In this document: piece by piece, positions 8,207 through 41,449 of the stretch
How the letters are laid out: the number at the start of each line of letters is the position of its first letter
Position numbering within the stretch: position 1 is the stretch's first letter
Assembly (NCBI GenBank): GCA_036984305.1
Contig: BQWY01000001.1
Span: 3,555,501-3,619,500 of the forward strand
DNA length: 64,000 nt
Reading direction: 5' to 3'
Source: Nitrospira sp.
Lineage (GTDB): Bacteria; Nitrospirota; Nitrospiria; Nitrospirales; Nitrospiraceae
The notes under the pieces: model-generated
What the model was told of the DNA's origin: nothing
Seen by the model: only the letters and a program-made list of their open reading frames with translations
Database searches by the model: none
Translations under genes and position numbers: made by a program

Positions 8207-8226
8207 TGTTGGCAGCCAGTTGATCA

Positions 8227-16203: not shown

Positions 16204-17081
16204 GTCTTTCCTCTCGAGACCATTGAAGTTGCATGGCTTACACCGACTCCACTCCAGTGGAATGAGTCCATAGTGCGACATCAAGGTGACCTTGCCCCGT
16301 TCATTACACCAAAGCTGAGGAGGTCAACTTGAGCCCCAGCTGGGGCCGGTTATTAAAGTTGGTCATGCATCCGGGGATGTGACCTCCCTACGGCATACTG
16401 AAGGTGCTCATTGCCCAAGGTTCCAAGCACTAGATTTGGTCGAAGGACGCTTCCAATAACTAAATAATCGTCCCTTATAAAAGATGAGACCTTTCGGTCA
16501 TCTCGCACACCTAATATATATGAGGGCCTTAGGCAAGACACATTCCTGGGAGCTGATTCAAGAAACGCTCTCAAACCCCCGCAGTGTGTATCTTTTTGTG
16601 CATCACGAATGTATCTAACGGGATACAGTTATTCGCCAATGGTTGAGTCTCTGGCAAGCTACTACGCCGCATTAGTAAGGCAATGCTGCTAGCTCAGGAC
16701 CCGCCAGGTATTCGCGTAACCACGAACATTTTTAGGTTGAATCATGCTATTGGCGTGCGCGGCATTGCCTTCATAGGTGGACAATGACCGGACGGTCATT
16801 GCACGTTACGCCATTCAAGACATCTAGCTCGGGCTATCCTGTTGGCGGTTGGCGGTGGACCCATCATTGGGCGCTGGCGGGTTGAGCCCCCGCAGGTCGA
16901 CGCGGCGAGCTGTCCAATGTCGGCGAGATAGGAGTTAGGCACAGATGCTGTGCCTCAGCGTGCGGTTCCGAAATGGTAAGTTAACGCGAATACTTCTGTA
17001 TTCGCTAGCCAACCATTCAATCTGAACTATTTTCCACTGGGATAACCGACCGAGGACAGGCAATAACCGTCCCCAGCTAGC
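16204..17081. other. Intergenic stretch without a recognised gene
   Basis: Nearly 880 bases hold no open frame with a convincing start or family motif. It contains a small inverted repeat near 16783-16801 (AATGACC-GGAC-GGTCATT) and one copy of an 18-bp sequence (16881-16898) that recurs at 19288-19305. Confidence 0.5.
16881..16898 (+). repeat. 18-bp direct repeat, copy 1
   Basis: GTTGAGCCCCCGCAGGTC occurs here and again at 19288-19305 in the same orientation. The two copies enclose the small protein, the beta-barrel and the XRE regulator genes. Exact 18-bp repeats at both sides of a gene group can mark an old insertion boundary, but no integrase or inverted ends lie inside. Confidence 0.5.
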
Positions 17082-22589: not shown

Positions 22590-22707
22590 CACGATGCCTG
22601 ATTCACTCCTTAGGAGGGAAAGCGTTTCGACTCTCAACTGGCATCCATCATATCGTGTATCTAGACCACAGAGAAACAACTTAAGTGGCCCGGACGGAGG
22701 CGAGGAG

Positions 22708-23025
22708 ATGCCCAATGCACATGAGATCCTGACAGCTGCGGAAGTGGCCGCATGGCTACGGCTCGCGGTGTCCACTGTCTACAGCTGGGCGGCACAGGGA
22801 ATGATCCCATCTATGCGACTGAATGGCTGCCTTCGCTTTGACCGCGCAGAACTGGCCCGGTGGATTGAACAGGCACGGATAACATCCTCACACGCGCCCT
22901 CTCGATCAGGCTCTGAACAGCCACTCCATGTGGTCAGTCAGCTAAGCAGAACAGCCATGGCAGATGCTGGCAAGCAAGTCATCCGCACACGACGTCTGAC
23001 GGTCCGTAACCACAGCATGGGGTAA
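22708..23025 (+). CDS. Excisionase-like helix-turn-helix protein
   Basis: ATG 22708 is chosen because of the site GGAGGCGAGGAG; the frame is open earlier. The 105-residue product begins with an HTH_17/MerR-like domain: ILTAAEVAAWLRLAVSTVYSWAAQGMIPSMRL then LRFDRAELARWI, the standard layout of excisionase-type DNA-binding domains. The remaining tail is basic and low in structure. It lies 12 bp before the tyrosine recombinase gene on the same strand, which is the usual arrangement of a recombination directionality factor with its integrase. Alternatively it may be only a regulator. Confidence 0.75.
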   Translation: MPNAHEILTAAEVAAWLRLAVSTVYSWAAQGMIPSMRLNGCLRFDRAELARWIEQARITSSHAPSRSGSEQPLHVVSQLSRTAMADAGKQVIRTRRLTVRNHSMG

Positions 23026-23037
23026 AAGAAACGAGCG

Positions 23038-24081
23038 ATGGGCATTTATCGACGTCCTGACAGTCCCACGTACTGGATGTCTCTGCAAATCCAAGGTCGG
23101 CGTGTCAGGTTAAATACCGGTGTATCGGACCGTCGCCTCGCGGAAGAACTCTTTGCCGCCTGGAAAGCCGAAGTGGCCAGGAGACAATGGCTTGGTAAGC
23201 CGCCAGGCGACACACAGCGGACCGTGTCGGAGCTGGTTCATGAGTACCGGTTGAAGGTGACCCCGCAGAAAACGCCGGAGTCCAGGTGCCGAGATCAAAT
23301 CATTCTGGACCGGCTAGAAAAGCAGTGGGGCTCCTTGCTGACGGGGGAACTCACGGCCAAGATGATCGAGGATTATCTGGCAGAGCGACGGAAGACAGTC
23401 TGTTTTGCCACGGCGTCCAAAGAACTCGGCGTGCTGAAATCCGCCTATCGGCACGCGATCCGATGGGGATGGGCCAGGACCAATCCCTTTGACGGCATCC
23501 CGCTCAACCAAGAAGGCGCTGAACGACTTCGATGGCTCACACACGAGGAAGAAGGCCGCCTGCTTAAGGCCTGCCCGGCCTGGCTGCGTGAGATGGTAAT
23601 AGTCGGCCTCGACACAGGATTGCGCCGGGCCAACCTCGTAGGTCTCCAGCGGCAATGGGTTCATCAGGATGGGACAGTCCTAGTGATTCCCAAACAGTAC
23701 GTCAAGGCCAAGAAATCAGTGGTAATCATTCCATTGACCGCTCGAGGCCGCGAAATCATCGGGGCCAAACTCACCCTCTCCCCTGACCAGGCTCTCTTCA
23801 CGCGACCAGATGGCGCACGGCATACCTTCGCCTCCGTCAGCACAGCCTTCGCGCGTGCTGCCCGAGCCGCAGGACTACTTCACGTATCGTTGCATACCCT
23901 ACGGCACACATTTATCAGTCGACTGGTCCAAGCGGGTCGCTCCCTAGCTGAAGTCGCAGTCTTGGCGGGGCACCGGGATCTTCGCGTCACGTTACGGTAT
24001 GCGCATCTTGGGCCGAATCAATTGGCTGATGCGATCAAGGTGCTCGAACCGCTACGATCGACAGCCGGTGATGCAGCGTAA
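23038..24081 (+). CDS. Tyrosine recombinase / phage-type integrase
   Basis: The 347-residue protein has an N-terminal SAM-like core-binding part (about 60-150) and a C-terminal catalytic domain. Catalytic residues are recognisable: Arg196 in DTGLRRANL, His286 and Arg289 in HTLRHTF, His312 in AGHRDLRVT and nucleophile Tyr321 in RYAHL. It should cut and rejoin DNA through a 3'-phosphotyrosine and would integrate or excise the element carrying 19.6-24.1 kb. No tRNA lies nearby, so the attachment site is not identified. The stop lies about 40 bp before a decayed IS3-type element. Confidence 0.88.
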   Translation: MGIYRRPDSPTYWMSLQIQGRRVRLNTGVSDRRLAEELFAAWKAEVARRQWLGKPPGDTQRTVSELVHEYRLKVTPQKTPESRCRDQIILDRLEKQWGSLLTGELTAKMIEDYLAERRKTVCFATASKELGVLKSAYRHAIRWGWARTNPFDGIPLNQEGAERLRWLTHEEEGRLLKACPAWLREMVIVGLDTGLRRANLVGLQRQWVHQDGTVLVIPKQYVKAKKSVVIIPLTARGREIIGAKLTLSPDQALFTRPDGARHTFASVSTAFARAARAAGLLHVSLHTLRHTFISRLVQAGRSLAEVAVLAGHRDLRVTLRYAHLGPNQLADAIKVLEPLRSTAGDAA

Positions 24082-26382: not shown

Positions 26383-26649
26383 ATGAAGAAAAGTCGGTAT
26401 TCGGAAGAACAAATTGCCACGGCGCTGCGGCAGGTCGAGGCCGGCGCTCCCATTCCGGAGGTGACCCGGAGCCTGGGGGTCAGCGAAGCCACGTACTACC
26501 ACTGGCGGAAGAAGTATGGGCCGATGGCCGTGGGTGAGATCCGGCGGCTGCGTCAGCTTGAGGAAGAAAACCGGAAGCTCAAGCAGCTCGTCGCCGATCT
26601 GACCTTGGATAAAGTGATTTTGCAGGAGGTGCTTGCAAAAAAGGCCTGA
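26383..26649 (+). CDS. IS3-family transposase OrfA
   Basis: The 88-residue protein starts at ATG 26383 behind CAGGAGGGCAACG. It has the OrfA helix-turn-helix ([36 protein letters not shown]) followed by a leucine-zipper-like helix ([32 protein letters not shown]), the DNA-binding half of the transposase. The end contains a slippery A_AAA_AAG (26637-26643) just before the TGA, placed for a -1 shift into orfB, which lies in that frame. The IS407-like subgroup is my best guess. Confidence 0.9.
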
Positions 26650-26669
26650 AGCCCACGCGCAAGCGTACC

Positions 26670-27509
26670 TTGGTCCGGGAGGTGCTGGGCCGGCACCCCA
26701 TTGGGGTACGACGAGCCTGTGGGCTAGTCAGATTGAATCGGGCCTCGTGGTATTACCGCCATCATGGGCGAGACGACACGGCGATTCGGATGCGGATGAA
26801 GGAATTGGCTCAGGCGCGTCCGCGCTTTGGCTATCTGCGGTTGCATGTCTTGCTCCGGCGTGAAGGCTGGAGGGTGAATAAAAAGCGTGTGCATCGGATC
26901 TATCGGGAAGAAGGGCTGACGGTGCGGTTCCAGCGGCGACGGAAGCGCGCGAGTCACCTGCGCGTGGTCCCGCCACGCCCTACACAACTGAATGAGCAAT
27001 GGAGCATGGATTTTGTCGCAGACACCTTGCTGGAGGGCCGGCGGTTTCGGACGCTAACGGTCGTGGATAATTACACGCGGCACAGTCCATTAATTGAGGC
27101 GGATCTGACCCTCACGGGAACGAAGGTGGTGGCGGCCCTGGAGCGGGCCGCGAAGCGGCACGGCTATCCGATGTTGATCACCGTGGACAATGGCAGTGAA
27201 TTCGCCTCCAAGGCGCTCGATGCCTGGGCCTATGCGCATGGCGTGAAGCTCGATTTCATCCGACCGGGGAAACCCATAGAGAATGCGGTGATTGAGAGTT
27301 TCAACGGGCGATTTCGGGACGAGTGCTTGAACGCCAATGTGTTCGTCTCGCTCCACGATGCCCGACAGAAGATTGAAGCGTGGCGGATCGATTACAATGA
27401 GCACCGGCCGCATGGCTCCCTGGGGGGTCTCACGCCCAGGGAATTTACGGAGCAAGCGGCCAAAACCGGGCTGCAGGAAGGCCCGAATTTCCAAATTTCT
27501 GCGGTCTAG
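26670..27509 (+). CDS. IS3-family transposase OrfB (DDE integrase)
   Basis: The 279-residue frame carries the HTH_21 part ([32 protein letters not shown]) and an rve-type catalytic core with Asp in [10 protein letters not shown], Asp in TVDNGSEF and Glu in [16 protein letters not shown], then [15 protein letters not shown]. It is intact. Translation is probably mainly as an OrfAB fusion through -1 frameshifting (26637-26643); an own start at 26670 is possible. The same protein is encoded at 32513-33352 on the other strand. Confidence 0.92.
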
Positions 27510-27621
27510 TTTCTGGGGAGGTGTCAACACAGGAGATCACTTCTTCAGCATTGGTGTAATGAAGGGGGGAAGGTCAGCACCTCCTGCCCTGGTGGAGAAA
27601 TAGCCGATTCCAATCGTTACA

Positions 27622-30267
27622 TCAATTTTCAGGGAAGGCGATGGATAGTTGGCTAGGTACTAGGTGGATGCGGATTTTCCCACGTAGAGATCCGCCTGTT
27701 CTATGAAGCTCAATGGTCAAGGTAAAGGCACGTTCATCTCCAGGACTAATCGGCAGGGTGAAATCTAGAGTTGCCTTCAAGTTCTTGAGTATATTAGCTT
27801 CGGTTGCAAAGGCGAATAGCTTTTCAACGTGTGCTCCATCCTGTCGCAAGTCTGGACGTCTATAGAGAGGTGCATGAGGAAGGTTGGAAGGATAAACAAT
27901 GACTTGAGATGAAAGTGACTCATCTACGAAATGTAGGGTGCCTTCTGTGTGTTCCTCGCGAGATGCTGGAATGGAGTGGGGCGTGCTAGTTCTTGCCAGC
28001 ATGATCCCCTTCTTAAACCCGCCCCGGGTCTCTCGCTTTTCCTTTTGGACGGACTTAAGATGAGCAGCAGAGATGTTCATACTTGTGCAAAGTCCCGCTG
28101 TTACTTCGCCCAGGTCTGCAAGCTCTGCAACCAAGTCTTCCCCGGAACCTGCATCTAGAGCTTCGAAAGCCTCCTCTACTAGCTTCTGCTTGAGTGCCGT
28201 GATGAGTGCGTCTCCTTGCAGTCGGATTATCTTGGCCCGTTCGCCTCGCTTATCAATGATCTCTGGTATCTTGTCGCGAACAATTTTGTTGTAATCAACC
28301 CGCTCCTCATCAACTCCAAAAAGGTCGATACACTCGACTTTGGCACCAAACTTGGTTAGCAAATAGTATGCGTGTGAGAGTATGCCACCAGCTAGTTCAA
28401 TGACGAACTGGCGTTTCGCGGACTGCTCGGCCAATTCCTTCGCAAAAGTAGGATTTCGGATAATCGTGGCGTCGGAAGGGTCCACGATTACCCGTTCGAT
28501 ACGTTCTCCCCCGGAAAGCCTATTCTGGAGAGCGTGCCAATCAACATCTTTTCTAATATGAAAATCCCTGGAAGTGGTGAGTTTTCGCCTCGGGGCGGCA
28601 CGTGGAGGTCCGGGTAGCTCAGATTTGCTGTGAAACCAGGGCAGTACATTGTGTCGGGTAGCCTTGGGGTGATTCTCGATAAACCACATAAGTGCGATGG
28701 GCTCTTTCGAGGCTTCTGCTATGCGCCGGGTGGTATGCGCAATCTCAAGGATCCACTCCTTCTTATTGATACTGAGGCGCCAATCGAAAGGTGGGCGTAC
28801 CGAAGTTGGTGTCCATTTTCCTGATTGATCAGCTGTAACAAAAGTCCCCTTGTGGCGGGTTCTATGGGAGATTACATAAGGCAATCCTGAATAATCCTTC
28901 CCTGCCTTCCTTAGTTTGACATCTTTCGTATCGACCTCAATTGTATCGTGGGAGTACCAGTACAGTCCCTCTGGAATTCCCCAGAGAGACTCGATGCGAA
29001 CTACTCTATGCCCCGGTTGGGCTCTCGCCCATGCCGATGCTACCGACGGAATGAAATGATGGGCGACGATGCAGAGTTCGTGACTATGTAATCCAAGCTT
29101 ATTTACCTCGCCAGCAAACACGCTTAACAGCCATTGTTCGGCTTCGAGATGATTAGCGAGTCGGTCGCTACGTGGCAACATTTCTCGCTTGTCTTTTGGA
29201 ATGTTTGGCCCCTCAGTCCGAATTATGAGCGGACGCTTTAGAAGTTCCTGGAGATCTTCTTTCATTGCAATTGAAATCGTTCCTGCAAGTAAAGAGCGAA
29301 TAATCTTCTGGTTATCAATGATAAAGAACGGGGGCATTCTATAGCCGAGCTGCCTATAAATGGCGGCATTCCGAAGTTTTATGTATTTTTTATAATCACT
29401 CTCACCGGCAAGCCGAAAAGTGCGTAGGCATTTCACTTTAAGACTAGAGATTTTGGTGGAAAAGAGCTGCCTTGGGTCTACCCCCACAGTTAATTCAGCT
29501 GCATCAGCTTGGACAATCCAGATTTTCCTGCCATCCCAAACCCACTCAAAGTGGATGCGCTTCTTGAACTGGGTAGCCCATTTCGCAACTTGTCGAAGCC
29601 GAAAAGGGATTTCGTGCTCAGAGTTGCACGTGAGATCAAGGGATGAAGGATGCTTCCCCTCGCGCCAACTTCTAATTCCGATAGGTATGGTTCGTCCTGG
29701 ATGGGTTTCTGTGGCCTCAAGTTCTACTACCCAATCACGAGGTTCCTTACTCACATGCCGCTCGTTTGATAGATGTCCTACTCGTCTTGGCTTGACGGGC
29801 TCCTGCGTCACCCAATGCACTACGGTGGTGTTTGGCGTCGAAATCGTTCCCCGCAGCCGGGCAATGAATTCTGGGATTGCTGCTGCGGAGGCCAGGCCAG
29901 AAACAAGACTCCCTCTATCGAGCATGGTCTCGGCCGCTCCGCTAGACCGAATCATGACAGCTGAACTTGCTGACAAGCCGATCTGTACTTGCACACCTAG
30001 AACCCAATTGTTCAGAGTGGTAAGAGGAATCTGCGTTTCAAAACAGCTGGCGGAGATTACGAAGTATGGGGGAGTCCATTCCGTAGGTAGAACACTCAAC
30101 CCGAAAGCCTTCCATCCAACTAGGCTTGGAGAAATATCACTGGATTCTAACTTGCGGAAGCCTATATCGGCGATGAGATATATGGAGCGTGATGGGAGGA
30201 AATCCTTACTTGGTGCATGGTTGGATGACTTTATGGACCCACGTGCGCCTCGATGGTGCCTGGCCAT
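27622..30267 (-). CDS. PEP-synthase-like ATP-grasp protein fused to MazG-type NTP pyrophosphohydrolase
   Basis: The 881-residue product starts at ATG 30267; its site AAGGAG overlaps the methyltransferase stop (TAAGGAG). Residues 48-255 resemble the ATP-binding domain of PEP synthase/PPDK: GWKAFGL..PTEWTPPYFVI, the IRSSG motif at 106-110 and a WDGRKIWIVQAD end at 245-254. Residues 285-450 look like a second diverged copy (MPPFFII, PLIIRTEG, LWGIPEGLYW). Residues 658-760 match MazG-like enzymes: YNKIVRDKIPEII, then Glu698, Glu699, Glu702 and Glu715, Asp718 as the EExxE..ExxD metal site. The last 100 residues are beta-rich and unknown. No swivelling His domain is seen, so normal PEP synthesis is unlikely. 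It is the last gene of a four-gene operon; nucleotide sensing or destruction is inferred. Confidence 0.75.
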   Translation of the reverse strand: MARHHRGARGSIKSSNHAPSKDFLPSRSIYLIADIGFRKLESSDISPSLVGWKAFGLSVLPTEWTPPYFVISASCFETQIPLTTLNNWVLGVQVQIGLSASSAVMIRSSGAAETMLDRGSLVSGLASAAAIPEFIARLRGTISTPNTTVVHWVTQEPVKPRRVGHLSNERHVSKEPRDWVVELEATETHPGRTIPIGIRSWREGKHPSSLDLTCNSEHEIPFRLRQVAKWATQFKKRIHFEWVWDGRKIWIVQADAAELTVGVDPRQLFSTKISSLKVKCLRTFRLAGESDYKKYIKLRNAAIYRQLGYRMPPFFIIDNQKIIRSLLAGTISIAMKEDLQELLKRPLIIRTEGPNIPKDKREMLPRSDRLANHLEAEQWLLSVFAGEVNKLGLHSHELCIVAHHFIPSVASAWARAQPGHRVVRIESLWGIPEGLYWYSHDTIEVDTKDVKLRKAGKDYSGLPYVISHRTRHKGTFVTADQSGKWTPTSVRPPFDWRLSINKKEWILEIAHTTRRIAEASKEPIALMWFIENHPKATRHNVLPWFHSKSELPGPPRAAPRRKLTTSRDFHIRKDVDWHALQNRLSGGERIERVIVDPSDATIIRNPTFAKELAEQSAKRQFVIELAGGILSHAYYLLTKFGAKVECIDLFGVDEERVDYNKIVRDKIPEIIDKRGERAKIIRLQGDALITALKQKLVEEAFEALDAGSGEDLVAELADLGEVTAGLCTSMNISAAHLKSVQKEKRETRGGFKKGIMLARTSTPHSIPASREEHTEGTLHFVDESLSSQVIVYPSNLPHAPLYRRPDLRQDGAHVEKLFAFATEANILKNLKATLDFTLPISPGDERAFTLTIELHRTGGSLRGKIRIHLVPSQLSIAFPEN

Positions 30268-30279: not shown

Positions 30280-31110
30280 TTAGCGGAAGGTAGGAATCTT
30301 CAGTCTCGGTGAGAAAAATAGAACTTCCTTTCCAATCTTTGCAGATCGAGCGGTGTGCTGAAGCAATAGGTGTCGCGAGCGCACAGAACTGTACAACTTC
30401 TTAATCTCGGGAACATCGTCATACGATACAACCCAGGTAGCGGTGATACGGCCGACTACTTTTCTAACTTCGGCATGATCTCTTGGGGTGTATTTGTTTA
30501 GGTATAAGCGTGCTCCTGACTTGTAGTATGGCGGGTCGAGATAAACGAAGCTCTCTTTTGGAGGACACGCCTCGTTTAGGAATGCGACCGCATCCAATCG
30601 GGTGAGGTGGATTTGGCTTTTATAAGACGCAATCCTTCTGATTCGTCTACATAGCTCGGTCTTGTTGAAACGGGCATCAAGCTTCCAGATTCCCTTTTGA
30701 TCTTTACCTCCTATCATGCCTCCGTTAAGGATACCCGAATGGTTCGTTCGGTTTAGAAAGAACAGGGCGAACCCTTGAGCGAGTATTCCAGAGGGAAGGC
30801 CGTCCTTGTAGATGGAACTTTGGAAAATCCACTCGTCGGGTGTTACCTCTGTTGAGATTATCAAGTCGATCAGATCGTTGTTTCGAGTTAGAACGCATTT
30901 CCAGAATGCATATACTGCGGGATCTAGGTCATTTAGGTGAATTTCTCTAACCTTATTCGAGAAAAGGAGACTTAGAGCCAAACTAGCTCCTCCCGCGTAT
31001 GGCTCATAGTAATCGCAACCGTCTAGGCGATTCAGAGAAATGATCTCCTCGAAGAATGGGTAGAATCGCCATTTTCCGCCGGGGTATCTAAGGGGCGATG
31101 CATCCCTCAT
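30280..31110 (-). CDS. D12-class N6-adenine DNA methyltransferase (Dam-like)
   Basis: The 276-residue protein begins SPLRYPGGKWRF, the standard N-terminus of D12-class enzymes, and carries SAM motif I as YYEPYAGGASLAL (residues 34-46) and the catalytic motif DPPYY at 192-196. NDLDPAVYAFW and NRTNHSGILNGG are also typical. It should methylate adenine N6 in a short target; the specificity cannot be read. The ATG overlaps the stop of the membrane-protein gene by 4 bp (ATGA), so translation is coupled. No restriction nuclease is seen beside it. In this setting it may mark self DNA for the system. Confidence 0.88.
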   Translation of the reverse strand: MRDASPLRYPGGKWRFYPFFEEIISLNRLDGCDYYEPYAGGASLALSLLFSNKVREIHLNDLDPAVYAFWKCVLTRNNDLIDLIISTEVTPDEWIFQSSIYKDGLPSGILAQGFALFFLNRTNHSGILNGGMIGGKDQKGIWKLDARFNKTELCRRIRRIASYKSQIHLTRLDAVAFLNEACPPKESFVYLDPPYYKSGARLYLNKYTPRDHAEVRKVVGRITATWVVSYDDVPEIKKLYSSVRSRHLLLQHTARSAKIGKEVLFFSPRLKIPTFR

Positions 31111-31685
31111 TGAGCTTCGCCAGCTGCCCCGCTCCTCTTTGCCCGCGTAGGCCCGAAAATTGTATCAGCTATCTCGGCCAGTTTCGCAACTGTACTGTCG
31201 GAAAAGTATCCCACGAGAAATGCCAGACCGAGGACGAGTGGGCCGGAATCGACAGCATGTCGGTCAAACACTCGTATCAGACCCGAGGAGATCAGTGCGA
31301 CTACAACTAGCGATAGTCCACCAGAAATGTGGGGGGTGAACAGCCGCCACAGGCGACGATCCATGTGCCAAATCTGCCTGGCAACGGAATGGTAGAGCCA
31401 TTTAATGTCAAATAGGGTGCCGCCGAATGTTCCACCTAACCAAGCCAATCCATACAAGAAGAGAACCCTGTATTTTGGATCTGGTATGTGAAACCAATTC
31501 TTGGGGTACTCCAACCATAATAGGAGCATTGTTGCGGGTACGAGAATAAAAAGCATGGCGAGATAGATAGCTTCAATTCGAATCCAGAATTGAGGGGTTG
31601 GGTCAGTGTACTTCGACTGCCATTCCAATAATTTGCGATTGTCAGTTGGATTTGCGGGAGCAAAGTCAGTGGAGGGAGATGTCAT
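31107..31685 (-). CDS. Membrane protein with about four transmembrane helices
   Basis: The 192-residue product has hydrophobic segments at about 37-58 (IEAIYLAMLFILVPATMLLLWL), 74-93, 119-141 (ISGGLSLVVVALISSGLI) and 150-166 (PLVLGLAFLVGYFS), with a soluble N-terminus and a basic C-terminal end. No enzyme motif is seen and I do not recognise the family. The ATG follows the TAA of the HIT gene with no gap, and the stop overlaps the methyltransferase start, so it is an obligate part of the operon. If the operon is defensive, this is the natural candidate for a membrane effector; that is inference. Confidence 0.75.
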   Translation of the reverse strand: MTSPSTDFAPANPTDNRKLLEWQSKYTDPTPQFWIRIEAIYLAMLFILVPATMLLLWLEYPKNWFHIPDPKYRVLFLYGLAWLGGTFGGTLFDIKWLYHSVARQIWHMDRRLWRLFTPHISGGLSLVVVALISSGLIRVFDRHAVDSGPLVLGLAFLVGYFSDSTVAKLAEIADTIFGPTRAKRSGAAGEAQ

Positions 31686-32339
31686 TTATGCCGCAACAAC
31701 GTTTTCCTGGTCGGATGCTTGAAAAGTTGACAATGTTTGTAGGCGCTTGATTGTGGTTAATACGGTCGGTAGCTGGTGGTGCTCTCTCCAATTGTATTGG
31801 TTCTCCATACCGAGTCGCGCAGCGATCGCCTTCCTGAACAGTTGGCTACCGAAGTCATGATGTGTGGTAATCCTGCCAGAGCCAATCGGCTGTTCCAGGT
31901 ACAGATAGTCTTCTCCTGTAGCGTGGGCGATCCGACAGTGTGTTAAGTCGGCGACTTCCCAATTGGCGTCACTCGGAAGATAAGGCAAAACTGCTTGCGC
32001 GAGATTAAACCTGATCGGGACGAGGTGGAGGTGCGCATGATCAACACCGCAGCCCACACTCCGGCTAGCCATGTAGGGGCCGTGCTCGAAGGCAGCTGCA
32101 GTTCCATAATGCTGTACAAGAAGATTAAATAGAAATTGTTTGATTTCTAGGATCTCAGGGAGAAAGGATTCGGGAATTGCGCCGAATGAGATGAAGTGAC
32201 GTTTAGGAACTAGCAGCAACCATCCTTCAACGAGTGAACCAAGGGAGGGGAGTGCGACGAAGTTTGGCGATTCGAATAGGGGTTTGTTCCAAACAGATGT
32301 TTGTGATTCGAGTTCTGAGCAAAGCCTGCAGTTGTTCAT
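31686..32339 (-). CDS. HIT-family (histidine triad) protein
   Basis: The 217-residue protein starts at ATG 32339 with site AAGAGGAGG. A CxxC pair (Cys4, Cys7) opens the protein, as in HIT/GalT-like enzymes with bound zinc. LLLVPKRHFIS and the triad HAHLHLVP (His101, His103, His105) after CGVD are clear. HIT proteins cleave or transfer nucleotidyl groups from NpX substrates such as Ap4A or adenylylated compounds. The 110-residue C-terminal part is not typical of small Hint proteins. It is the first gene of the four-gene operon with the adenine methyltransferase and the MazG fusion, so a nucleotide-related job is likely. Confidence 0.85.
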   Translation of the reverse strand: MNNCRLCSELESQTSVWNKPLFESPNFVALPSLGSLVEGWLLLVPKRHFISFGAIPESFLPEILEIKQFLFNLLVQHYGTAAAFEHGPYMASRSVGCGVDHAHLHLVPIRFNLAQAVLPYLPSDANWEVADLTHCRIAHATGEDYLYLEQPIGSGRITTHHDFGSQLFRKAIAARLGMENQYNWREHHQLPTVLTTIKRLQTLSTFQASDQENVVAA

Positions 32340-32495: not shown

Positions 32496-32512
32496 TGACA
32501 CCTCCCCAGAAA

Positions 32513-33352
32513 CTAGACCGCAGAAATTTGGAAATTCGGGCCTTCCTGCAGCCCGGTTTTGGCCGCTTGCTCCGTAAATTCCCTGGGCGTGAGACCCCCC
32601 AGGGAGCCATGCGGCCGGTGCTCATTGTAATCGATCCGCCACGCTTCAATCTTCTGTCGGGCATCGTGGAGCGAGACGAACACATTGGCGTTCAAGCACT
32701 CGTCCCGAAATCGCCCGTTGAAACTCTCAATCACCGCATTCTCTATGGGTTTCCCCGGTCGGATGAAATCGAGCTTCACGCCATGCGCATAGGCCCAGGC
32801 ATCGAGCGCCTTGGAGGCGAATTCACTGCCATTGTCCACGGTGATCAACATCGGATAGCCGTGCCGCTTCGCGGCCCGCTCCAGGGCCGCCACCACCTTC
32901 GTTCCCGTGAGGGTCAGATCCGCCTCAATTAATGGACTGTGCCGCGTGTAATTATCCACGACCGTTAGCGTCCGAAACCGCCGGCCCTCCAGCAAGGTGT
33001 CTGCGACAAAATCCATGCTCCATTGCTCATTCAGTTGTGTAGGGCGTGGCGGGACCACGCGCAGGTGACTCGCGCGCTTCCGTCGCCGCTGGAACCGCAC
33101 CGTCAGCCCTTCTTCCCGATAGATCCGATGCACACGCTTTTTATTCACCCTCCAGCCTTCACGCCGGAGCAAGACATGCAACCGCAGATAGCCAAAGCGC
33201 GGACGCGCCTGAGCCAATTCCTTCATCCGCATCCGAATCGCCGTGTCGTCTCGCCCATGATGGCGGTAATACCACGAGGCCCGATTCAATCTGACTAGCC
33301 CACAGGCTCGTCGTACCCCAATGGGGTGCCGGCCCAGCACCTCCCGGACCAA
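32513..33352 (-). CDS. IS3-family transposase OrfB, second copy
   Basis: The 279 residues are the same as those of OrfB at 26670-27509, including the DDE residues. The gene itself is intact, but its partner orfA has lost its 5' end (next entry), so an OrfAB fusion cannot be produced from this copy; it may be mobilised only by the complete copy. Confidence 0.9.
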
Positions 33353-33372
33353 GGTACGCTTGCGCGTGGGCT

Positions 33373-33580
33373 TCAGGCCTTTTTTGCAAGCACCTCCTGC
33401 AAAATCACTTTATCCAAGGTCAGATCGGCGACGAGCTGCTTGAGCTTCCGGTTTTCTTCCTCAAGCTGACGCAGCCGCCGGATCTCACCCACGGCCATCG
33501 GCCCATACTTCTTCCGCCAGTGGTAGTACGTGGCTTCGCTGACCCCCAGGCTCCGGGTCACCTCCGGAATGGGAGCGCCG
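33373..33580 (-). pseudogene. IS3-family OrfA, 5'-truncated
   Basis: Reading leftward, the frame joins OrfA from ...[20 protein letters not shown] to the LAKKA end with the same slippery A_AAA_AAG. The first 20 or so codons and the left IS end are missing; the break is at 33580, where foreign sequence begins. Confidence 0.85.
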
Positions 33581-33706: not shown

Positions 33707-35620
33707 CTATGGCCGGGTAACCGTCACGATGTATGTCTTGACGGTCACACCGTCCTGCGCCCGCACCTGAATTGGAAAGGACGTCACTCCGATATTGATG
33801 AGCACGGCCAAGCCTGGAGGACCGGATGGGACGACTTGGCCGTTGATACTGAGCGCGGCGGTGGCATCAGCCACCGTCGCCATGACGGTAACGCTGGGGG
33901 TGAATAGACCCGTGCCCGTCACGGTATAGGCCGTATTGGAGGGAGTGAAGAGTGGAAGCATGACCCCGGGAGACACCACGAGGCCAGCCAGATCGGCATT
34001 GGACGAGGCTGCACGAGTGACGGCCACGGTGTAGGTTTTCGAGGCTGCACCCCCGGCAGCTGTGACGACCAGAGTGATAGTATTGCCTCCAACATTGAGT
34101 GGGAGGGGTCCAAATACTTGGCCTGACGCCACCACCTGTCCGTTGATGGTCAGCGTCGATGTCGCGTCCGCAAGGGTTGCGGTGACGGTGGTCGTCGCGT
34201 TGGCATTAGGCGCCGACACCGCATAACTCGTCGTACCGGAATCAAATCCTGGAGAAAGCGGTCCGGCGGACAGCGCGAGACTCGCCAGATTTGCATTCGC
34301 CGTTCGTGTAATGGTCACAACATAGGTCTTGACGCTGCCGTCTTGGGCTGTGACCACAATCCTAAATTCGTTGGCCCCTACATTGAGTGAGAGGGGCCCG
34401 AAGGTCTCCCCAGATTGGACCGTGGTCCCATTGATGGCAATCGTCGCCGTCGGATCTTGAACAGAGGCTGTCAATGTGGTGCTTGCTACCGTGCTCAAGA
34501 CGGTGACGGAGTAGCTGGTCGTCGTGGGTGCGAACCCCGGGTCGAGGGCCCCGGCCGATACACTCAATGCGGACAGATTATTGTTGCTCGATTGTGGTCG
34601 TGAGATCTTCACGGAATAACTTCGTGTTGTGCCATCCTGTGCTCGAACATCAATGGCCACGGTGCTGTCACCGATGATGAGTGGGATGGGACCTGAAGGC
34701 TGCCCAGACGACACAGCCTGTCCGTTTATGGTGAGCTGAGCGCTCGCATCCGCAAGCAGTGCGGTAACGGTGGTTTGAGTGGTGGCGTTATCCGTTTGGA
34801 CTGAGTACGAGCTTATGTCCGGCGAGAAAGCTGGAGATAGCGCTCCTGCCGAGACCTCCAAGGCCGCCAAGTCGGCCACCCCGGAGGCACCTCGGATCAC
34901 CACGACGGAATACTGCTTTGCGGTTCCACCTGGAGGTGAGACCGTAATGGTAAAGGGGTTAGGTCCCAAGGCGAGGGAGACCGGCCCAAACGGTTGTCCG
35001 CTAATGGCCGCTTGTCCATTCACACTGATCTGGGCCGTAGGTTCCGCCGGCGTAGCCGTGAGCGTGGTGGACGAAGTCGAGTTACCGGTCTTCACCGTAT
35101 AACCCGTGACACTCGGATCAAACCTCGGCGAAAGCGCAGCCGCCGAGACCGATAGGGCGGCAAGGTCCGCCAAAGGCGAGGCCGATCTGGTGACAGTAAT
35201 CGTATAACTGCGGGTGACTCCCCCTGGAACGGTCTCCTCGACCAGGAGTACGACAGGCAGCGCGGCACCCACCTTAAGATTATCGATCACATAGGGGTCA
35301 CCCGATGGCACGTTTTGGTTGTTAATTTTCAAAATGGAGCGTTGGACGTCCGCCAGCGCAGCCCGAATAGTGACCGCCGTCACAGAATTGGGTACGGTGA
35401 CCGTATACGTTACGACCTTCGGGTCAAACGGAGGGGACAGCGCCGGAGAGGCGGAGGAGGATGCCCCAGTTGTCGACACCTCGAGGGAGGCCAGCAGCGC
35501 ACGCTCGTTATCGGGTGGTGGCGCAGGATTATCACCACCTGGAATGCACCCTACTAGCATGGCGCAGGACAGGATCAAGCAACTGAAAAAGGCGTGCACT
35601 CGTTCAAGTGAACGGCCCAT
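33707..35620 (-). CDS. Lipoprotein with six cadherin-like beta-sandwich repeats
   Basis: I choose ATG 35620 (MGRSLERV, site GGGAG) over ATGs up to 30 bp upstream. The signal ends in a lipobox, LSCAMLVG|C, so the mature protein should be lipidated. Six tandem units of about 90-100 residues follow, each opening with LAxLxVSAGxLSPxFdP and closing with TYTVxVTRxA, the pattern of the cadherin-like beta-sandwich family (Pfam PF12733). The C-terminus ends in the last unit (KTYIVTVTRP). Such modules are usually extracellular and structural or adhesive. It is the last of five same-strand paralogues and starts within a few bases of the preceding gene's stop, suggesting co-transcription with it. Confidence 0.8.
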   Translation of the reverse strand: MGRSLERVHAFFSCLILSCAMLVGCIPGGDNPAPPPDNERALLASLEVSTTGASSSASPALSPPFDPKVVTYTVTVPNSVTAVTIRAALADVQRSILKINNQNVPSGDPYVIDNLKVGAALPVVLLVEETVPGGVTRSYTITVTRSASPLADLAALSVSAAALSPRFDPSVTGYTVKTGNSTSSTTLTATPAEPTAQISVNGQAAISGQPFGPVSLALGPNPFTITVSPPGGTAKQYSVVVIRGASGVADLAALEVSAGALSPAFSPDISSYSVQTDNATTQTTVTALLADASAQLTINGQAVSSGQPSGPIPLIIGDSTVAIDVRAQDGTTRSYSVKISRPQSSNNNLSALSVSAGALDPGFAPTTTSYSVTVLSTVASTTLTASVQDPTATIAINGTTVQSGETFGPLSLNVGANEFRIVVTAQDGSVKTYVVTITRTANANLASLALSAGPLSPGFDSGTTSYAVSAPNANATTTVTATLADATSTLTINGQVVASGQVFGPLPLNVGGNTITLVVTAAGGAASKTYTVAVTRAASSNADLAGLVVSPGVMLPLFTPSNTAYTVTGTGLFTPSVTVMATVADATAALSINGQVVPSGPPGLAVLINIGVTSFPIQVRAQDGVTVKTYIVTVTRP

Positions 35621-35640
35621 CTTGAAACTCCCATGCGCCA

Positions 35641-36678
35641 TCAAGGACATGTACCTGGTGTAGGATCTGCGAGATGGTAGACATGAAGAACATAGCTCAT
35701 GGCTGTCACGGTGTCTTGGGCCCTTACCTCAACGGGTATGGAGGTGGGGGTAGGATCGCGTTGGAGAATCAGAACAGTGACGGGCTGGCCCGAACCAGTT
35801 GCTTGCCCGTTGACGAAAAGGCTTGCTGTGGGATCGGACACAATAGCTGTTACCAGGATGGCCTGTGTAAACAAGCCGGCATTGCTGACGACGTAACAGG
35901 TGGTTGTAGGACTGAAAGCAGGTGATAGCGAAAGAGAAAATACCTGCAAGTCGGACAACGTGGCATTGCTCGAAGCAGCGCGTATGACCTGGACTGTATA
36001 GGTCTTGGTGGTAATGGTATCAACCCCTCGCACCTGGATGACGAAGTTGTTCGATCCGACATTGAGAGGCACCGGACCAAAAACTTGGCCAGAAGTAACT
36101 TGTGCACCGCCGATCGTAATAGTTGATCCAGCTTGTTCGGCCGTCGGGGTAATGGTCGTTTGTGCTGCGCTATTCGGGGCACTGACCGTATAATTCACCG
36201 TGTCAGAGGCAAAACCTGGTGATAAGGGGCCGGCCGAAAACACGAGGCTCGACAAATTGACGTTGGCTGAGCGAATGATTGTGATCGTATAGCTCTTTGG
36301 CGCACTCCCCTTCGGCGTGACGACGACGGGGATAGGATTCTGTCCAACGTTAAGCGCGATCGGCCCAAATGGCTGTCCCGACTGGGCAGGCTGATTATTG
36401 ATCTGGAGCGTCGCGCCGGGCTCGAAGGTCGTGGCTGTCACCATGGTGGACGCAATTCCATTCCCAACTGTCACGGTATAGTTCGAGGTGGCGCCCTCAA
36501 ACGGCGGAGCCAACTGCCCGGCTGATACTTCAAGCGAGGACAGATCGGACGCGGTCGTTGGGACAGGAGCCGGGTCTGAACTCGGAATACAGGCGGCGAG
36601 GAGAATTGTCAAAGACACCACGACCCACACGCTCCGCACACGCGGAAGGGAAAAGCGGCGTCGGGCTATGGCGTTCAC
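35641..36678 (-). CDS. Lipoprotein with three cadherin-like beta-sandwich repeats
   Basis: GTG 36678 is preferred because VNAIARRRFSLPRVRSVWVVVSLTILLAA|C then forms a standard lipoprotein signal; the frame is open up to 36801. No strong ribosome site is seen for either. Three repeat units follow (LSSLEVSAGQLAPPFEG, LSSLVFSAGPLSPGFAS, LSDLQVFSLSLSPAFSP). The last is diverged and ends in LHVYHLADPTPGTCP instead of a regular strand. It is the shortest of the five paralogues, with a single terminal Cys. It lies directly before the six-repeat gene. The role is inferred as a surface or periplasmic structural protein. Confidence 0.75.
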   Translation of the reverse strand: MNAIARRRFSLPRVRSVWVVVSLTILLAACIPSSDPAPVPTTASDLSSLEVSAGQLAPPFEGATSNYTVTVGNGIASTMVTATTFEPGATLQINNQPAQSGQPFGPIALNVGQNPIPVVVTPKGSAPKSYTITIIRSANVNLSSLVFSAGPLSPGFASDTVNYTVSAPNSAAQTTITPTAEQAGSTITIGGAQVTSGQVFGPVPLNVGSNNFVIQVRGVDTITTKTYTVQVIRAASSNATLSDLQVFSLSLSPAFSPTTTCYVVSNAGLFTQAILVTAIVSDPTASLFVNGQATGSGQPVTVLILQRDPTPTSIPVEVRAQDTVTAMSYVLHVYHLADPTPGTCP

Positions 36679-36801
36679 GCGGCAAACTATGCCACAGAGT
36701 GAATGACCGAAACAACTGGATGGGTGCGGGTTTGACGCTTCCTGATAAGCCAGCCTGTAGGATTTTCCAGTCATAAGACTAATGAGGAAAAACGAGTTCA
36801 T

Positions 36802-37166
36802 CTTGCGTAGCGCTACGTGTGGACGGAATCCCCAGTGCAGATGCGAATCAGGGTGCGACTAGTGACCCGTTGATCGTCAGCCCAATATGAACGTCCCGAG
36901 TAGTTCCTGCTCCCTTGGCTATGAGAAGGGAAATCGGCCGACAGACCTCTGAGAGTATTACGGTAGAGTCACAGTTTGCCTGTATGGTTCCGGAGACGGT
37001 CGATACACCCCCCAAAAGATGTCATGAGGCTGTCCCCAACATCGAGAAGTCGCTTGGTGGCATGTTCGCCTCAAGGCACACCGCAGTATCGGGTCACACC
37101 CTTGCTCCCGCAAGGACGTTGCTCGGTATTGGTCAAGGATTGGGCTCAAACCACTGACTTGGCAGA
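36802..37166 (-). other. Intergenic stretch with a possible repeat-gene remnant
   Basis: Around 36835-36920 the minus strand reads like a worn beta-sandwich unit (GLTINGSLVAP, compare LTINGQVVASG in the neighbours), followed by stops. The rest of the 365 bases shows no gene. Confidence 0.35.
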
Positions 37167-38477
37167 CTACCGCTCTACGTCGACCCGATAGCTTTTCGTG
37201 CTTCCATTTTGGGCTCGGACCTCGATCGTGATACGGGTCGTGTTTTTGGGAAGGGCGACGGGACCGAACGGCACACCGGACTTGGCCGTAATCCCATTGA
37301 TCTTCAGCGTTGCCTCGGCATCCTCCGTCGTGGCCGTGACCATGGTGATTAAGGTCAATTTTGGCGCATCCACCGTGTAGGAGGTGCGGCTCGGGTTGAA
37401 AGCCGGCTTGAGCGGCCCGGCCGTGAGTTGCAGATTCGCCAGGTCTCGGTTGCTCGATTCCCCTCGCGCGACGAGGACCGTATAGACCTTCGCCGTCACA
37501 CCGTCCTGCGCGCGCACGGCAATCGTGATCGTGGTTGTCGTTCCCGTTGGATTCAGCGCGATCGGACCGAAGGGGACCCCTGAGACCGCGGCATTCCCGT
37601 TAATGGTCAGCGTCGAACTCGCGACTTGCACCGTGGCCGTCACGGTCGTCGTCGAAGTCGTGCTTGGCGCCGTCACGCCATACGTGACGGTGTTGGAACC
37701 AAAGGCTGGGTTGAGCTTCCCCGCCGATACTTGCAGGGCCGACAGATTGGCATTGCCGGGTCCGGCCCGATTGACCAGCACCGTATAGGTCTTGGTCGTC
37801 GCGTTCACGGCGGTGACCACGATGTTGATGACATTGTTCCCCGTGGCGAGATTGATCGGTCCGAACGGTTGCCCCGAGGTGGCCGCCTGATTGTTGATCT
37901 TGAGAGTTGCACGCGGATCGGACAATGTCGCGGTGACCGTTGTCTGCGTGGTCGTGGACGGCGCCGACACCGCATAGCTGGTGGTTGCCGGATCGAACTC
38001 CGGGGAAAGGGGTCCCGCGGAAAGTTCAAGCCCGAACAAATCGGCCGGCCCACCGCGCGTGACCACGACCGTATAGCTCTTGGACGCCCCTGGGCCATCG
38101 ACCAGTATGCTCAGAGGATTGATGCCGACATCCAGCGAGATCGGACCAAAGGGCTGGCCCGGCGTCGCCGGCTGATTATTCACTTGAAGAGCGGCCGAGG
38201 CATTGGCCGGAGTCGCCGTCACGGTGGTGTCGCTTGTACCATTGGGCGTCAAGACGTCGTAGGTACTCACTGCAGGAGTGAAGCCAGGATTGAGCGGTCC
38301 GGCCGAAACCTCCATGTTCGACAGGTCGGCTGGAGAACTCGTCGCGGAGGATGAATCGCCATCAGGGATGCAGCCGCCCGAACTGATGATGAGACAAAGC
38401 AGAATGGCGAGCAGTTCAGAGGTGTTTGATCTGCAAGGTCGGTGGCTGACCCGCCTTGCGGGAGATGCTGGATTCAT
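37167..38477 (-). CDS. Lipoprotein with four cadherin-like beta-sandwich repeats
   Basis: ATG 38477 follows GGGGAGG and opens a long lipoprotein signal (MNPASPARRVSHR..., ILLCLIISSGG|C). The four repeats begin LSNMEVSAGPLNPGF, LFGLELSAGPLSPEF, LSALQVSAGKLNPAF and LANLQLTAGPLKPAF. The product has 436 residues and ends in ITIEVRAQNGSTKSYRVDVER. Each unit carries the conserved TLxINxxxxxSGxPFGPIxL turn. Lipidation places it at the membrane, probably the outer membrane. Its job is unknown; the paralogue family next to it differs chiefly in repeat number. Confidence 0.8.
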   Translation of the reverse strand: MNPASPARRVSHRPCRSNTSELLAILLCLIISSGGCIPDGDSSSATSSPADLSNMEVSAGPLNPGFTPAVSTYDVLTPNGTSDTTVTATPANASAALQVNNQPATPGQPFGPISLDVGINPLSILVDGPGASKSYTVVVTRGGPADLFGLELSAGPLSPEFDPATTSYAVSAPSTTTQTTVTATLSDPRATLKINNQAATSGQPFGPINLATGNNVINIVVTAVNATTKTYTVLVNRAGPGNANLSALQVSAGKLNPAFGSNTVTYGVTAPSTTSTTTVTATVQVASSTLTINGNAAVSGVPFGPIALNPTGTTTTITIAVRAQDGVTAKVYTVLVARGESSNRDLANLQLTAGPLKPAFNPSRTSYTVDAPKLTLITMVTATTEDAEATLKINGITAKSGVPFGPVALPKNTTRITIEVRAQNGSTKSYRVDVER

Positions 38478-38596
38478 GAATCCTCCCCTGACCACGTGAC
38501 GCGGAATTACTCTTCCGTCCATTACGTAGCTAGGGGAAGCAGTGTACGTGTGAGCCGAAAGAAATGGCAACCGGCACAAATGAGGGGGGCACAATG

Positions 38597-41449
38597 CTAT
38601 GGAGCCGCCCGTGTGACGGTTACGGTGTAGGGCTTCTGCATACCATTTTGAGCTGTCACAATGATGTTAATCGGATTGGCCCCTTCACTTAACATGATCG
38701 GTCCAAAAGCCACGCCCGAGTTAGCAGGTGCCCCGTTAATCGTCATCGTTGCTGTCGCGGAATCGGCCACGGTAGCTGTTACTGTCGTGACGGCAACCGT
38801 GTTTGGAGCGGACACATTGTAGCTCGCGGTGCCAGCATCAAACGCAGGCATCAGGGTACCCGCCGAGACTGCCAACGCCGACAGATTATTGTTTCCCGAG
38901 AGAACGACCGCCGCCCGATTGACTGTCACCAAATAGGGTTTTTGACTCCCGTTTGGCGCCGTCACGATAATAGAGATGGACGTGCTCGACCCTGCTGCCC
39001 CTAATGTAACCGACCGGCTGGTTCCTGATTGCCCATTAATAGTGACGGTCGCACTTCCATCTTGTGGTTGCGCTGTGACCGTGACACTGCTCACATTGCT
39101 TCCGACATCCACCGAGTAGTTCTGTTGATTCGCATCAAAGGACGGCGATAAGGTCCCCGAAGTCACGGTCAAGCTCTGAAGGTTGTTGTTGCCCCCCAGC
39201 GCCGCCCGATTGACTGTCACAAAGTAGGTTTTCTGCGCCCCATTCGGCGCCGTCACGACAATCGCGAAGGGCGTGCTCGATCCCGGTCCTTGAAGGGTGA
39301 TCGACCGAGATTGCCCGGAATTGGTCCCTTGTCCGTTCACCATCAGGGTCGCACCCGTATCCTGCAGAGTCGCGGTCACGCTGATGCTGGAGACAGTGCT
39401 CGCTACATCAACATTGTAGCTAGTCGTGTTGGTGTCGAATGCCGGACTGAGTGTCCCCGGTGACACGGTTAGTCCAGATAAGTTGTTGTTCCCCCCTAAG
39501 GCAGCCCGATTGACTGTCACAAGGTAGGCTTTCTGCGTCCCATTCGGGGCCGTCACGACAATCGCGAAGGGCGTGCTCGATCCCGGTCCTTGAAGGGTGA
39601 TCGGCCGAGATTGCCCGGAATTCGTTCCCAGCCCGTTCACCGTCAGGGTCGCACTCGTATCCTGCAGAGTCGCGGTCACGTTGATGCTGGAGACAGTGCT
39701 CGCCACGTCGACGTTGTAATTTGTGGTGTTACTGTTAAAGCCTGGGCTCAAGCTACCTGGCGATACGCTCAGGCTTTGTAGATTGTTATTCCCACCCAAG
39801 GCAGCTCGATTGACTGTCACAATGTAGGTCTTCTGCGTCCCATTCGGTGCCGTTACCACAATCGGGAAGGGCGTGCTCGACCCTGCTCCGCCAAGTGCGA
39901 TGGACCGAGCTTGCCCGGAGTTGGTACCCTGCCCGTTCACCATCAGGGTCGAACTCGTATCCTGCAGGGTCGCCGTCACGCTGATGCTGGAGACAGTGCT
40001 CTCCACGTCGACAGAGTAACTGGTCGTGTTGGCATTGAAGCCGGGCGATAGCGAACCGGGAGAAACTGTGAGGCCTGATAGGTTGGTATTGCCGCTAAGC
40101 GTTTGGGTCACAGTAATAACGTAGTTGGTTTGCCCACCGTTTTGCGCAGTGACCACGATAACAATTGGCGTCGCAGTCCCGGGTGGATTGAGCCCCACCG
40201 TCTGGGGCGAACCGGGTGTTCCGTTTATGGTTAGAGAGGCACCTGACTCAGCGGGCGTCGCCGAAACCGTCACACTGTTCACGTTGTTCGCCACGTCTAG
40301 CGTATACCCCAAGATCGTGCTAGCAAAGCCGGGCTGGAGTGTCCCTTGATTCACCGTCAAGCTAGAAAGAGAGGAATTCGCCGATGGCTGACCGCGTGTG
40401 ATGGTCAGTGTGTAGGTTTTGGTAGGAGGCGTCGCCTGTGCCGTCACGACGATGGTAAAAGCATTGTCCCCGACATTGAGCTGTACGGGAAAACCCGCTC
40501 CCGATGCGGCAGGCTGAGGACTAAAACCCGGGCCGCTTATTGTAATCGTGGCAGATGTGTCGGCTGCCGTTGGCGTGATGGTCGCTGAGCTTGTCCCGAA
40601 CGGGACGGCTGCCGTGTAGATTGTGGTATTCGAGGCAAACGCCGGGGATATTTGTCCAGCAGAGGTAGCAAGGTTACCGAGATCCGGAGTCCCCGCCCTG
40701 GTGACCACCACGGTATACGCTTTGGACGTATTGTTTTGGGCCAGTACGAGAATGGTGATGGTGGTCTGGCCCGAACTGAGCGCAATCGATTGACTGGGCT
40801 GGCCGGACGTGGCCGCCACGCCGTTTACCTGCAACGACGATGTCTCATCCGACAATGTGGCAATCACGGAGACGGATTGGGTGCTGAATCCCGTCGTGGC
40901 GGTATAGGCCGTCGTCGCGGGGGCGAAAGCCGGATCCAACCCAGCCGACGACGTCGGGCCCGTCGAAATGATGAGTTGCTGAAGATTGGCGTTCGATCCC
41001 CGATTGATGACAATCGTGTAGGCCTTGGTCAATCCCGGCGCATCGACCGTCACAATAAAGTTGTTGGCCCCCGGGCTCACGTCGAGTGGATTTGAATTCT
41101 GTCCGGATACGAGCGTGGACGTTTGTCCGCTCGGCACTTGGAGACGAATCGTCGTATTGCCGGGGTTCGGTACGGTGGTCTTGATGTTGACGGTTGTAAC
41201 GGATCCACCGACATCGCCCATGTAGTTGGTTGTGTTCCCATCGAAGGCGGGTGAAAGACCAACGGGCTGCTGGCCGGAATAGGTGACCTCCAACCCCGAG
41301 AGATTGGCAACGTTACTCGCGACGCCGGGACTGTCTGAACTCGGGATACACCCTACGAGAAATGCAAGGAGGGCGAACGGGAGAACCGCCTGATACAGAC
41401 ACGTCTTGAATGCAACGAACCTCGGCTGCCCAGCCGCCTCGAGTTTCAC
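38597..41449 (-). CDS. Lipoprotein with nine cadherin-like beta-sandwich repeats
   Basis: The GTG at 41449 directly follows GGGAGGGT. The signal MKLEAAGQPR..LPFALLAFLVG|C has a good lipobox. Nine units make up the 950 residues. Units 5-7 are about 300 bp each and almost identical in DNA (39190-40080), with shared stretches such as SSTPFAIVVTAPNGTQK and ATLMVNGQGTNSGQ; the others are more diverged. The conserved start of the units is LSGLTVSPGxLSPxFxxNTTSYNVDV. It is the largest of the paralogues. Repeat number probably changes by slippage or recombination, as in many surface proteins. Confidence 0.82.
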   Translation of the reverse strand: MKLEAAGQPRFVAFKTCLYQAVLPFALLAFLVGCIPSSDSPGVASNVANLSGLEVTYSGQQPVGLSPAFDGNTTNYMGDVGGSVTTVNIKTTVPNPGNTTIRLQVPSGQTSTLVSGQNSNPLDVSPGANNFIVTVDAPGLTKAYTIVINRGSNANLQQLIISTGPTSSAGLDPAFAPATTAYTATTGFSTQSVSVIATLSDETSSLQVNGVAATSGQPSQSIALSSGQTTITILVLAQNNTSKAYTVVVTRAGTPDLGNLATSAGQISPAFASNTTIYTAAVPFGTSSATITPTAADTSATITISGPGFSPQPAASGAGFPVQLNVGDNAFTIVVTAQATPPTKTYTLTITRGQPSANSSLSSLTVNQGTLQPGFASTILGYTLDVANNVNSVTVSATPAESGASLTINGTPGSPQTVGLNPPGTATPIVIVVTAQNGGQTNYVITVTQTLSGNTNLSGLTVSPGSLSPGFNANTTSYSVDVESTVSSISVTATLQDTSSTLMVNGQGTNSGQARSIALGGAGSSTPFPIVVTAPNGTQKTYIVTVNRAALGGNNNLQSLSVSPGSLSPGFNSNTTNYNVDVASTVSSINVTATLQDTSATLTVNGLGTNSGQSRPITLQGPGSSTPFAIVVTAPNGTQKAYLVTVNRAALGGNNNLSGLTVSPGTLSPAFDTNTTSYNVDVASTVSSISVTATLQDTGATLMVNGQGTNSGQSRSITLQGPGSSTPFAIVVTAPNGAQKTYFVTVNRAALGGNNNLQSLTVTSGTLSPSFDANQQNYSVDVGSNVSSVTVTAQPQDGSATVTINGQSGTSRSVTLGAAGSSTSISIIVTAPNGSQKPYLVTVNRAAVVLSGNNNLSALAVSAGTLMPAFDAGTASYNVSAPNTVAVTTVTATVADSATATMTINGAPANSGVAFGPIMLSEGANPINIIVTAQNGMQKPYTVTVTRAAP
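39190..40080 (-). repeat. Three tandem, nearly identical 300-bp units
   Basis: Landmarks such as GATTGACTGTCACAA(A/G/T)GTAGG occur at about 39208, 39508 and 39808, exactly 300 bases apart. The intervening sequence is almost unchanged (AATCGCGAAGGGCGTGCTCGATCC, GTATCCTGCAGAGTCGCGGTCACG). The unit equals one 100-residue beta-sandwich module, so this is a recent in-frame expansion within the lipoprotein gene. Confidence 0.9.

Follow-up and report, generated by a model that had tools for sequence, protein, structure and literature searches.

The window, by which we mean the whole stretch of 64,000 nucleotides analysed here, carries a four-gene cassette on its minus strand, which encodes a HIT-like protein, a membrane protein, a D12-class DNA methylase and a large fusion protein, and which lies between two copies of an insertion sequence (IS). 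The genes and flanking elements are as follows.

32496..33580 (-), second IS copy, inverted, with the four cassette genes between both copies (DNA comparison)
31686..32339 (-), HIT/HINT-like protein, 217 aa, with an N-terminal CxxC and a HAHLH motif, first gene of the operon (PF01230, E 0.0026, a match below the curated cut-off)
31107..31685 (-), membrane protein, 192 aa, with about four hydrophobic segments (hydropathy)
30280..31110 (-), D12-class adenine-N6 DNA methyltransferase, 276 aa, with DPPY (PF02086, E 3e-15)
27622..30267 (-), tandem ATP-grasp/phosphohistidine-like/MazG fusion protein, 881 aa (ORF translation)
26442..27526 (+), IS copy with an IS3-type (rve) transposase (PF13683/PF00665)

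The methylase and membrane-protein genes overlap by 4 bp, and the fusion gene starts 12 bp after the methylase gene. The first-pass annotation of this DNA considered the fusion protein by itself, which proved to be incomplete, since this protein is one part of a conserved cassette and its neighbouring genes are the main finding.

Conservation, linkage and mobility of the cassette

Full-length homologues of the fusion protein (23-40% identity) are present at 11 other loci, which rules out that its architecture is a product of chance. The sample consists mostly of MAG contigs, with finished or named-species-level records for four members only. The gene order HIT, membrane protein, fusion is constant in all 12 loci, which come from several phyla, while a D12 methylase adjoins this core in nine of them. 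It does so in five arrangements, a linkage which argues that the methylase is not a bystander.

Methylase between membrane protein and fusion gene: window
Methylase upstream, same strand: G203, G204, G116
Methylase upstream, divergent: G200, G202
Methylase downstream, same strand: G645
Methylase downstream, convergent: G198, G201

No D12 methylase was found near the copies on the Caulobacter plasmid W01 and in G478, which are the two most divergent members, and at the Elusimicrobia locus the contig ends within the fusion gene, where adjacency is not readable. Two further candidates, L012 and G541, were rejected as members because their similarity is confined to MazG, and G1333 and G1474, which hold divergent matches to the membrane protein, were rejected because neither a HIT nor a fusion gene is adjacent.

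The core genes are co-inherited, with correlations between their distance matrices of r 0.90-0.92 (0.90 for both fusion-membrane and fusion-HIT), and those with the methylase are at r 0.47-0.65 (fusion-methylase r 0.47, p 0.007). The lower values would be as expected if the methylase were a specificity component subject to occasional exchange.

In the alignment of HIT proteins from the 12 loci, A102, H103 and H105 are invariant and H101 is kept in 11 (Trp in G478), and the HxHxH histidine triad is complete in 11/12. Distant relatives of this protein on the plasmids L083-L087 adjoin cysteine desulfurase genes (Streptomyces, Lactococcus and Rhizobium) or, on a Parabacteroides plasmid, genes encoding ThyX, an ATP-binding protein and dihydrofolate reductase; this suggests that the wider HIT family takes part in nucleotide or modification pathways. 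The membrane protein, for which Pfam, PADLOC and NCBIfam gave no match, has 20 invariant columns across the 12 loci and the conserved motifs K-x-L-x(5)-A-x(3)-W-x(2)-DR-x(2)-WR and F-x(2)-GYF-x-D-x(9)-A-x(3)-FG. As for the methylases, the DPPY motif occurs in all nine that were aligned.

The GC content of the cassette block is 49.5%, compared with 56.6% outside it, and a DNA search of 40 related genomes did not find the cassette. Full-length fusion genes are rare in each group searched (3/198 with the window included, 2/398, 2/298 and 1/199). The two flanking IS copies are 1085 bp long, 100% identical and in inverted orientation. They end at the same outer point (26442 and 33580 of the window), where there is no obvious matching terminal repeat, and each copy may therefore be truncated. 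The cassette of G645 (contig L075) is located beside genes for TniQ, TniB and a Mu-type transposase, as cargo of a Tn7-like element. Within this element (L075:1382-17266), the cassette has as neighbours a gene for a HerA-type ATPase and a weakly matching TnsE-like one, followed by a DUF3800 gene. Moreover, an nSTAND3 NTPase and a GNAT-PIN protein are encoded near the copy on plasmid W01, and Fic genes are found near the cassette in L004 and L005.

Domain anatomy of the fusion protein

All motifs quoted in the first-pass annotation were found in the 881-aa translation, namely GWKAFGL (residues 51-57), IRSSG (106-110), WIVQAD (250-255) and YNKIVRDKIPEII, the last with E698, E699, E702, E715 and D718. 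Library matches are weak, with E 0.007 for PRA-PH (PF01503) in the window protein and 0.0003 in its best relative, and E 0.025 for PPDK_N in two relatives. NCBIfam, PHROGs and PADLOC gave nothing above chance for the fusion protein, and sequence searches of the PDB gave no convincing match. The following parts were distinguished.

29437..30204 (-), residues 22-277, first PPDK_N-type ATP-grasp domain (hhalign and predicted fold)
28582..29436 (-), residues 278-562, second, degenerate PPDK_N-type ATP-grasp domain (predicted fold and hhalign)
28303..28569 (-), residues 567-655, probable phosphohistidine swivel domain, candidate catalytic H632 (invariant His and fold alignments)
27973..28299 (-), residues 657-765, MazG/PRA-PH pyrophosphohydrolase domain (PF01503, best E 0.0003 among members)
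27625..27960 (-), residues 770-881, beta-rich C-terminal part, poorly conserved (low pLDDT, no family match)

The full-length model, built with seven sequences, has a mean pLDDT of 58 and a pTM of 0.38, and a separate N-terminal model reaches 65 and 0.70, respectively; given this modest confidence, we claim the fold class alone and not structural details.

Two halves resembling PEP synthase had been proposed, and both the profile comparison and the predicted fold place them with ATP-grasp domains of the PPDK/PEP-synthase type; over the first 450 residues the predicted folds match PPDK, PEP synthase and rifampin phosphotransferase (RPH). The second copy, which had been placed at residues 285-450, is present and has a longer extent than proposed, since it reaches about residue 562 as a complete domain. 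The assignment of residues 22-277 and 278-562 as complete ATP-grasp domains of the PEP-synthase/PPDK/RPH type is thus supported by these models and profiles. With PPDK_N domains of the genome to which the window belongs and of its relatives as the hhalign reference, the first domain had a probability of 93.7% (E 2e-7) in local and 96.4% (E 1.1e-9) in global mode and the second one of 92% (E 6.7e-7), compared with E values of 0.2-0.8 for the controls (MazG, C-terminal part, HIT, membrane protein and methylase). The model of the first half aligned with PPDK 1dik at a VIA Z of 12.0 (210 residues, rmsd 4.2) and with RPH at 10.8, both of which outrank other ATP-grasp families. For the second half, a VIA Z of 14.0 was obtained with PEP synthase 2ols and of 13-14 with RPH (5hv1/5fbs; best 13.9, 230 residues, rmsd 3.5). 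A single PPDK_N domain interrupted by an insertion was rejected, because the alignment of either half covers an entire ATP-binding domain from one end to the other.

The ATP-site residues K53, R107, E241 and Q253 of the first domain are kept in all 12 homologues. E241 and Q253 pair with the EW and Q positions of PPDK_N and have a spacing of 12, which is also the E-Q spacing of dikinases. The position of the "QxR" Arg is occupied by an invariant Asp255 (12/12), which may have changed the chemistry of this domain relative to dikinases; owing to this replacement, we file the protein as dikinase-like and not as a dikinase. In the second domain, K297 and R350 are retained, while the Glu is always replaced by Met527 and QxR is absent from the alignment of 12 homologues, so that it is probably a pseudo-site or a binder of another ligand. 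The protein has neither a pyruvate/PEP domain (TIM barrel) nor an acceptor domain for a drug, and the second ATP-grasp domain fills the space between the first one and the His region.

The first-pass annotation saw no phosphohistidine swivelling domain, which is probably wrong. H632 (codon 28372-28374) is invariant in 12/12 and stands in the context G-[GS]-x-L-[SA]-H-[AP] across the homologues, with GG-x-LSHA in the window protein, a form of the motif GG-x-[T/L]-S-H-A. The top local profile alignment (hhalign) puts it on the catalytic His of dikinases (GGMTSHA/GGRTCHA) with an E value of only 0.07, and Pfam gave no PF00391 match for the fusion protein or its relatives. The fold alignments extend to residue 647, both with 5lu4 (model 281-647 to chain 1-471, covering the PPDK central domain) and with 2ols (282-647). 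Because the His-bearing region is in the right position and two fold alignments run across it, residues of about 565-650 are likely to form such a domain, despite the E value and the missing Pfam match.

The MazG domain, with helices predicted at residues 686-748, contains the metal motif EExxE-12-ExxD (E698, E699, E702, E715 and D718), which is complete and invariant in 12/12. Metal competence had been named as a point to check, and from the intact motif the site should bind metal. Its closest relatives are stand-alone annotated NTP pyrophosphohydrolases (33-42% identity over about 100 residues), and the stand-alone MazG-like enzymes of the YNKLVRDKIP type have the same signature and metal motif. 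Those proteins are common in phage contigs, whereas here the domain is part of an 881-aa enzyme. A phage origin of the fusion was rejected, as 49 viral contigs contain stand-alone MazG domains only; no relative of the membrane or HIT protein was confirmed when these were searched for in viral contigs and in phage records. A different MazG fusion was observed at L012:1426-3291, which joins an N-terminal MazG-like domain to PLDc_2 and a type III restriction-like helicase, and just upstream of it (L012:3-1229) is a CRISPR-ring-nuclease-like or CARF-looking gene.

A protein of this anatomy may, as the first reading had suggested, be a sensor or kinase of the ATP-grasp type whose action is coupled to the destruction of NTPs. 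The impression that its domain order is unfamiliar was also borne out, since neither a paper nor a family model for such an order was found, and searches of the freely accessible literature gave no description of PEP synthase, PPDK or ATP-grasp domains combined with MazG, HIT or phage defence.

Comparison with known systems

The fusion protein shares with RPH, PEP synthase and PPDK the ATP-grasp type, the order and spacing of the ATP-site Lys/Arg/Glu/Gln and a downstream His-bearing region with GG-x-x-S/C-H-A. Unlike these enzymes, it has a tandem ATP-grasp with a degenerate second copy and the Asp in place of the QxR Arg, lacks a PEP/pyruvate or rifampin domain, and carries MazG and a beta-rich tail in addition.

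The best PADLOC model for the methylases was PD-Lambda-5_B (PDLC04018) at all six loci tested (E 1e-116 to 3e-37; 1e-108 in the window). The cassette thus has a methylase subfamily in common with PD-lambda-5, an E. coli prophage defence system, which restricts most phages tested in E. coli (a strain without the mrr region) and was described as a compacted RM+Abi-like system (PMC9519451). For the other three proteins of the window, PADLOC searched at E 1 gave nothing except a CARF_TM hit at chance level, and it gave none for the Caulobacter set. NCBIfam likewise had no matching profile for these three proteins. PD-Lambda-5_A is therefore absent and the cassette is not PD-lambda-5, compared with which it adds three further conserved proteins.

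Similar to BREX and Pgl, the cassette combines a DNA methylase with phosphotransfer- or phosphatase-type enzymes and has no obvious nuclease. However, no PglZ, BrxC or PglX homologue was detected in it by PADLOC and NCBIfam, and all folds are different. Searches of Pfam, PADLOC and NCBIfam revealed no nuclease family in the four genes, with the C-terminal 110 residues of the fusion protein unassigned, and no recognisable DNA-binding domain is present in the cassette. MazG domains have been computationally predicted for defence among the DefensePredictor candidates (PMC13092281), and the available part of that source names no tandem ATP-grasp fusion and no HIT or membrane partner. A published description of the four-gene cassette was not found.

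Possible function of the cassette

The reading that we favour, at about an even chance, is that the cassette is a mobile, methylation-linked defence system against viruses or other foreign DNA, with a core that handles nucleotides. The constant core order points to it, together with a D12 methylase that is kept though its place changes, and so does the best methylase model, which belongs to a system shown to block phages. It is also suggested by the invariant ATP-site residues, H632 and MazG metal motif along with the correlated distance matrices, by the fold or motif of three of the four proteins, which marks them as enzymes that depend on nucleotides or SAM, and by the patchy, GC-poor, IS-flanked or transposon-borne cassette with its nSTAND3 and Fic neighbours. 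Against it we count the two members (W01 and G478) with no D12 methylase nearby, the lack of a nuclease or recognisable DNA-binding domain, the swivel domain that is not significant by profile and the Asp for the QxR Arg, with which the chemistry may differ.

The self-marking, the direction and substrate of phosphotransfer and the order of events that we infer would be as follows. The methylase, judging from its constant linkage, would mark host DNA, and the entry of unmethylated DNA would activate the core. The first ATP-grasp domain would bind ATP and pass a phosphoryl group via H632 to a small molecule, probably a nucleotide, which might be held by the second, degenerate domain. MazG could act on an NTP/dNTP or on the product and strip pyrophosphate from it, the HIT protein could hydrolyse or transfer a nucleotidyl group, and both might keep phosphotransfer in check or end it. 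The membrane protein may be the envelope anchor of the complex or an effector, and the invader would be stopped by nucleotide consumption or by a nucleotide signal acting through this protein. Only tentatively do we suggest a new, nuclease-free class of immunity, in which the marks set by an adenine methylase would tell self from non-self and gate a membrane-associated complex that, by ATP-driven phosphohistidine transfer and with its built-in MazG and its HIT partner, would produce a nucleotide signal or drain nucleotides.

Alternatively, the three nucleotide-type enzymes found together may belong to a nucleotide or DNA hypermodification pathway, in which the phosphotransferase, MazG and HIT would make or clean up an unusual nucleotide, the methylase would modify the same DNA and any protection would come from the modified DNA itself. 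The plasmid HIT relatives beside genes for cysteine desulfurase, a ThyX-type thymidylate synthase and dihydrofolate reductase are in line with this. Nevertheless, we regard it as rather unlikely, for enzymes that are particular to known DNA hypermodification, such as a polymerase, kinase, glycosyl- or amidotransferase, are missing from all 12 loci, such a pathway has no use for the conserved membrane protein, and the D12 methylase is of the ordinary SAM-dependent N6-adenine type.

An addiction or toxin-antitoxin-like module, whose nucleotide-depleting core would be restrained by DNA methylation and which would maintain a mobile element and not act against phages, is unlikely. The IS- and transposon-borne cassette, the methylase retained next to the core and the possible toxicity of MazG or of phosphotransfer would fit such a module, while the cassette is unusually large and multi-component for one and two members persist without a methylase. 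We find it quite improbable that the genes are a stress or nucleotide-pool housekeeping operon that was spread by transfer and has no tie to foreign DNA: MazG and HIT proteins often work in nucleotide sanitation, but the operon is rare and patchy within each group searched, constantly linked to a methylase and situated in mobile contexts. A small-molecule phosphotransferase for resistance or catabolism, like rifampin phosphotransferase or HpeHI, with the methylase as a bystander, is very improbable. The nearest folds are indeed the ATP-binding domains of RPH and HpeI, but the middle domain is a second ATP-grasp and not drug-binding, and a fused MazG and fixed HIT and membrane partners have no place in such enzymes.

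If the cassette does act in defence, it would be a methylase-linked system with no recognisable nuclease, in which phosphotransfer parts of central metabolism are joined to a nucleotide pyrophosphohydrolase. It would bear on a question shared with BREX, namely how methylation gates immunity in the absence of an obvious nuclease, and the conserved residues named above make it directly testable by point mutants.

Finally, several other features were observed in the window. An excisionase-like HTH gene and a tyrosine integrase (22594-24081) are close to the IS-flanked cassette. Four large genes are arranged in a row at 720-16284 (-); among them, the one at 4309-8124 (-) encodes a protein with at least 11 WD40 repeats, and in the product of the one at 8227-11958 (-) a caspase-type domain (Peptidase_C14) and a subtilase domain occur together. 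As well, paralogous lipoprotein-like genes with cadherin-like beta-sandwich repeats occupy 33707-44932 (-), and PF12733 was confirmed for the one at 35641-36801.
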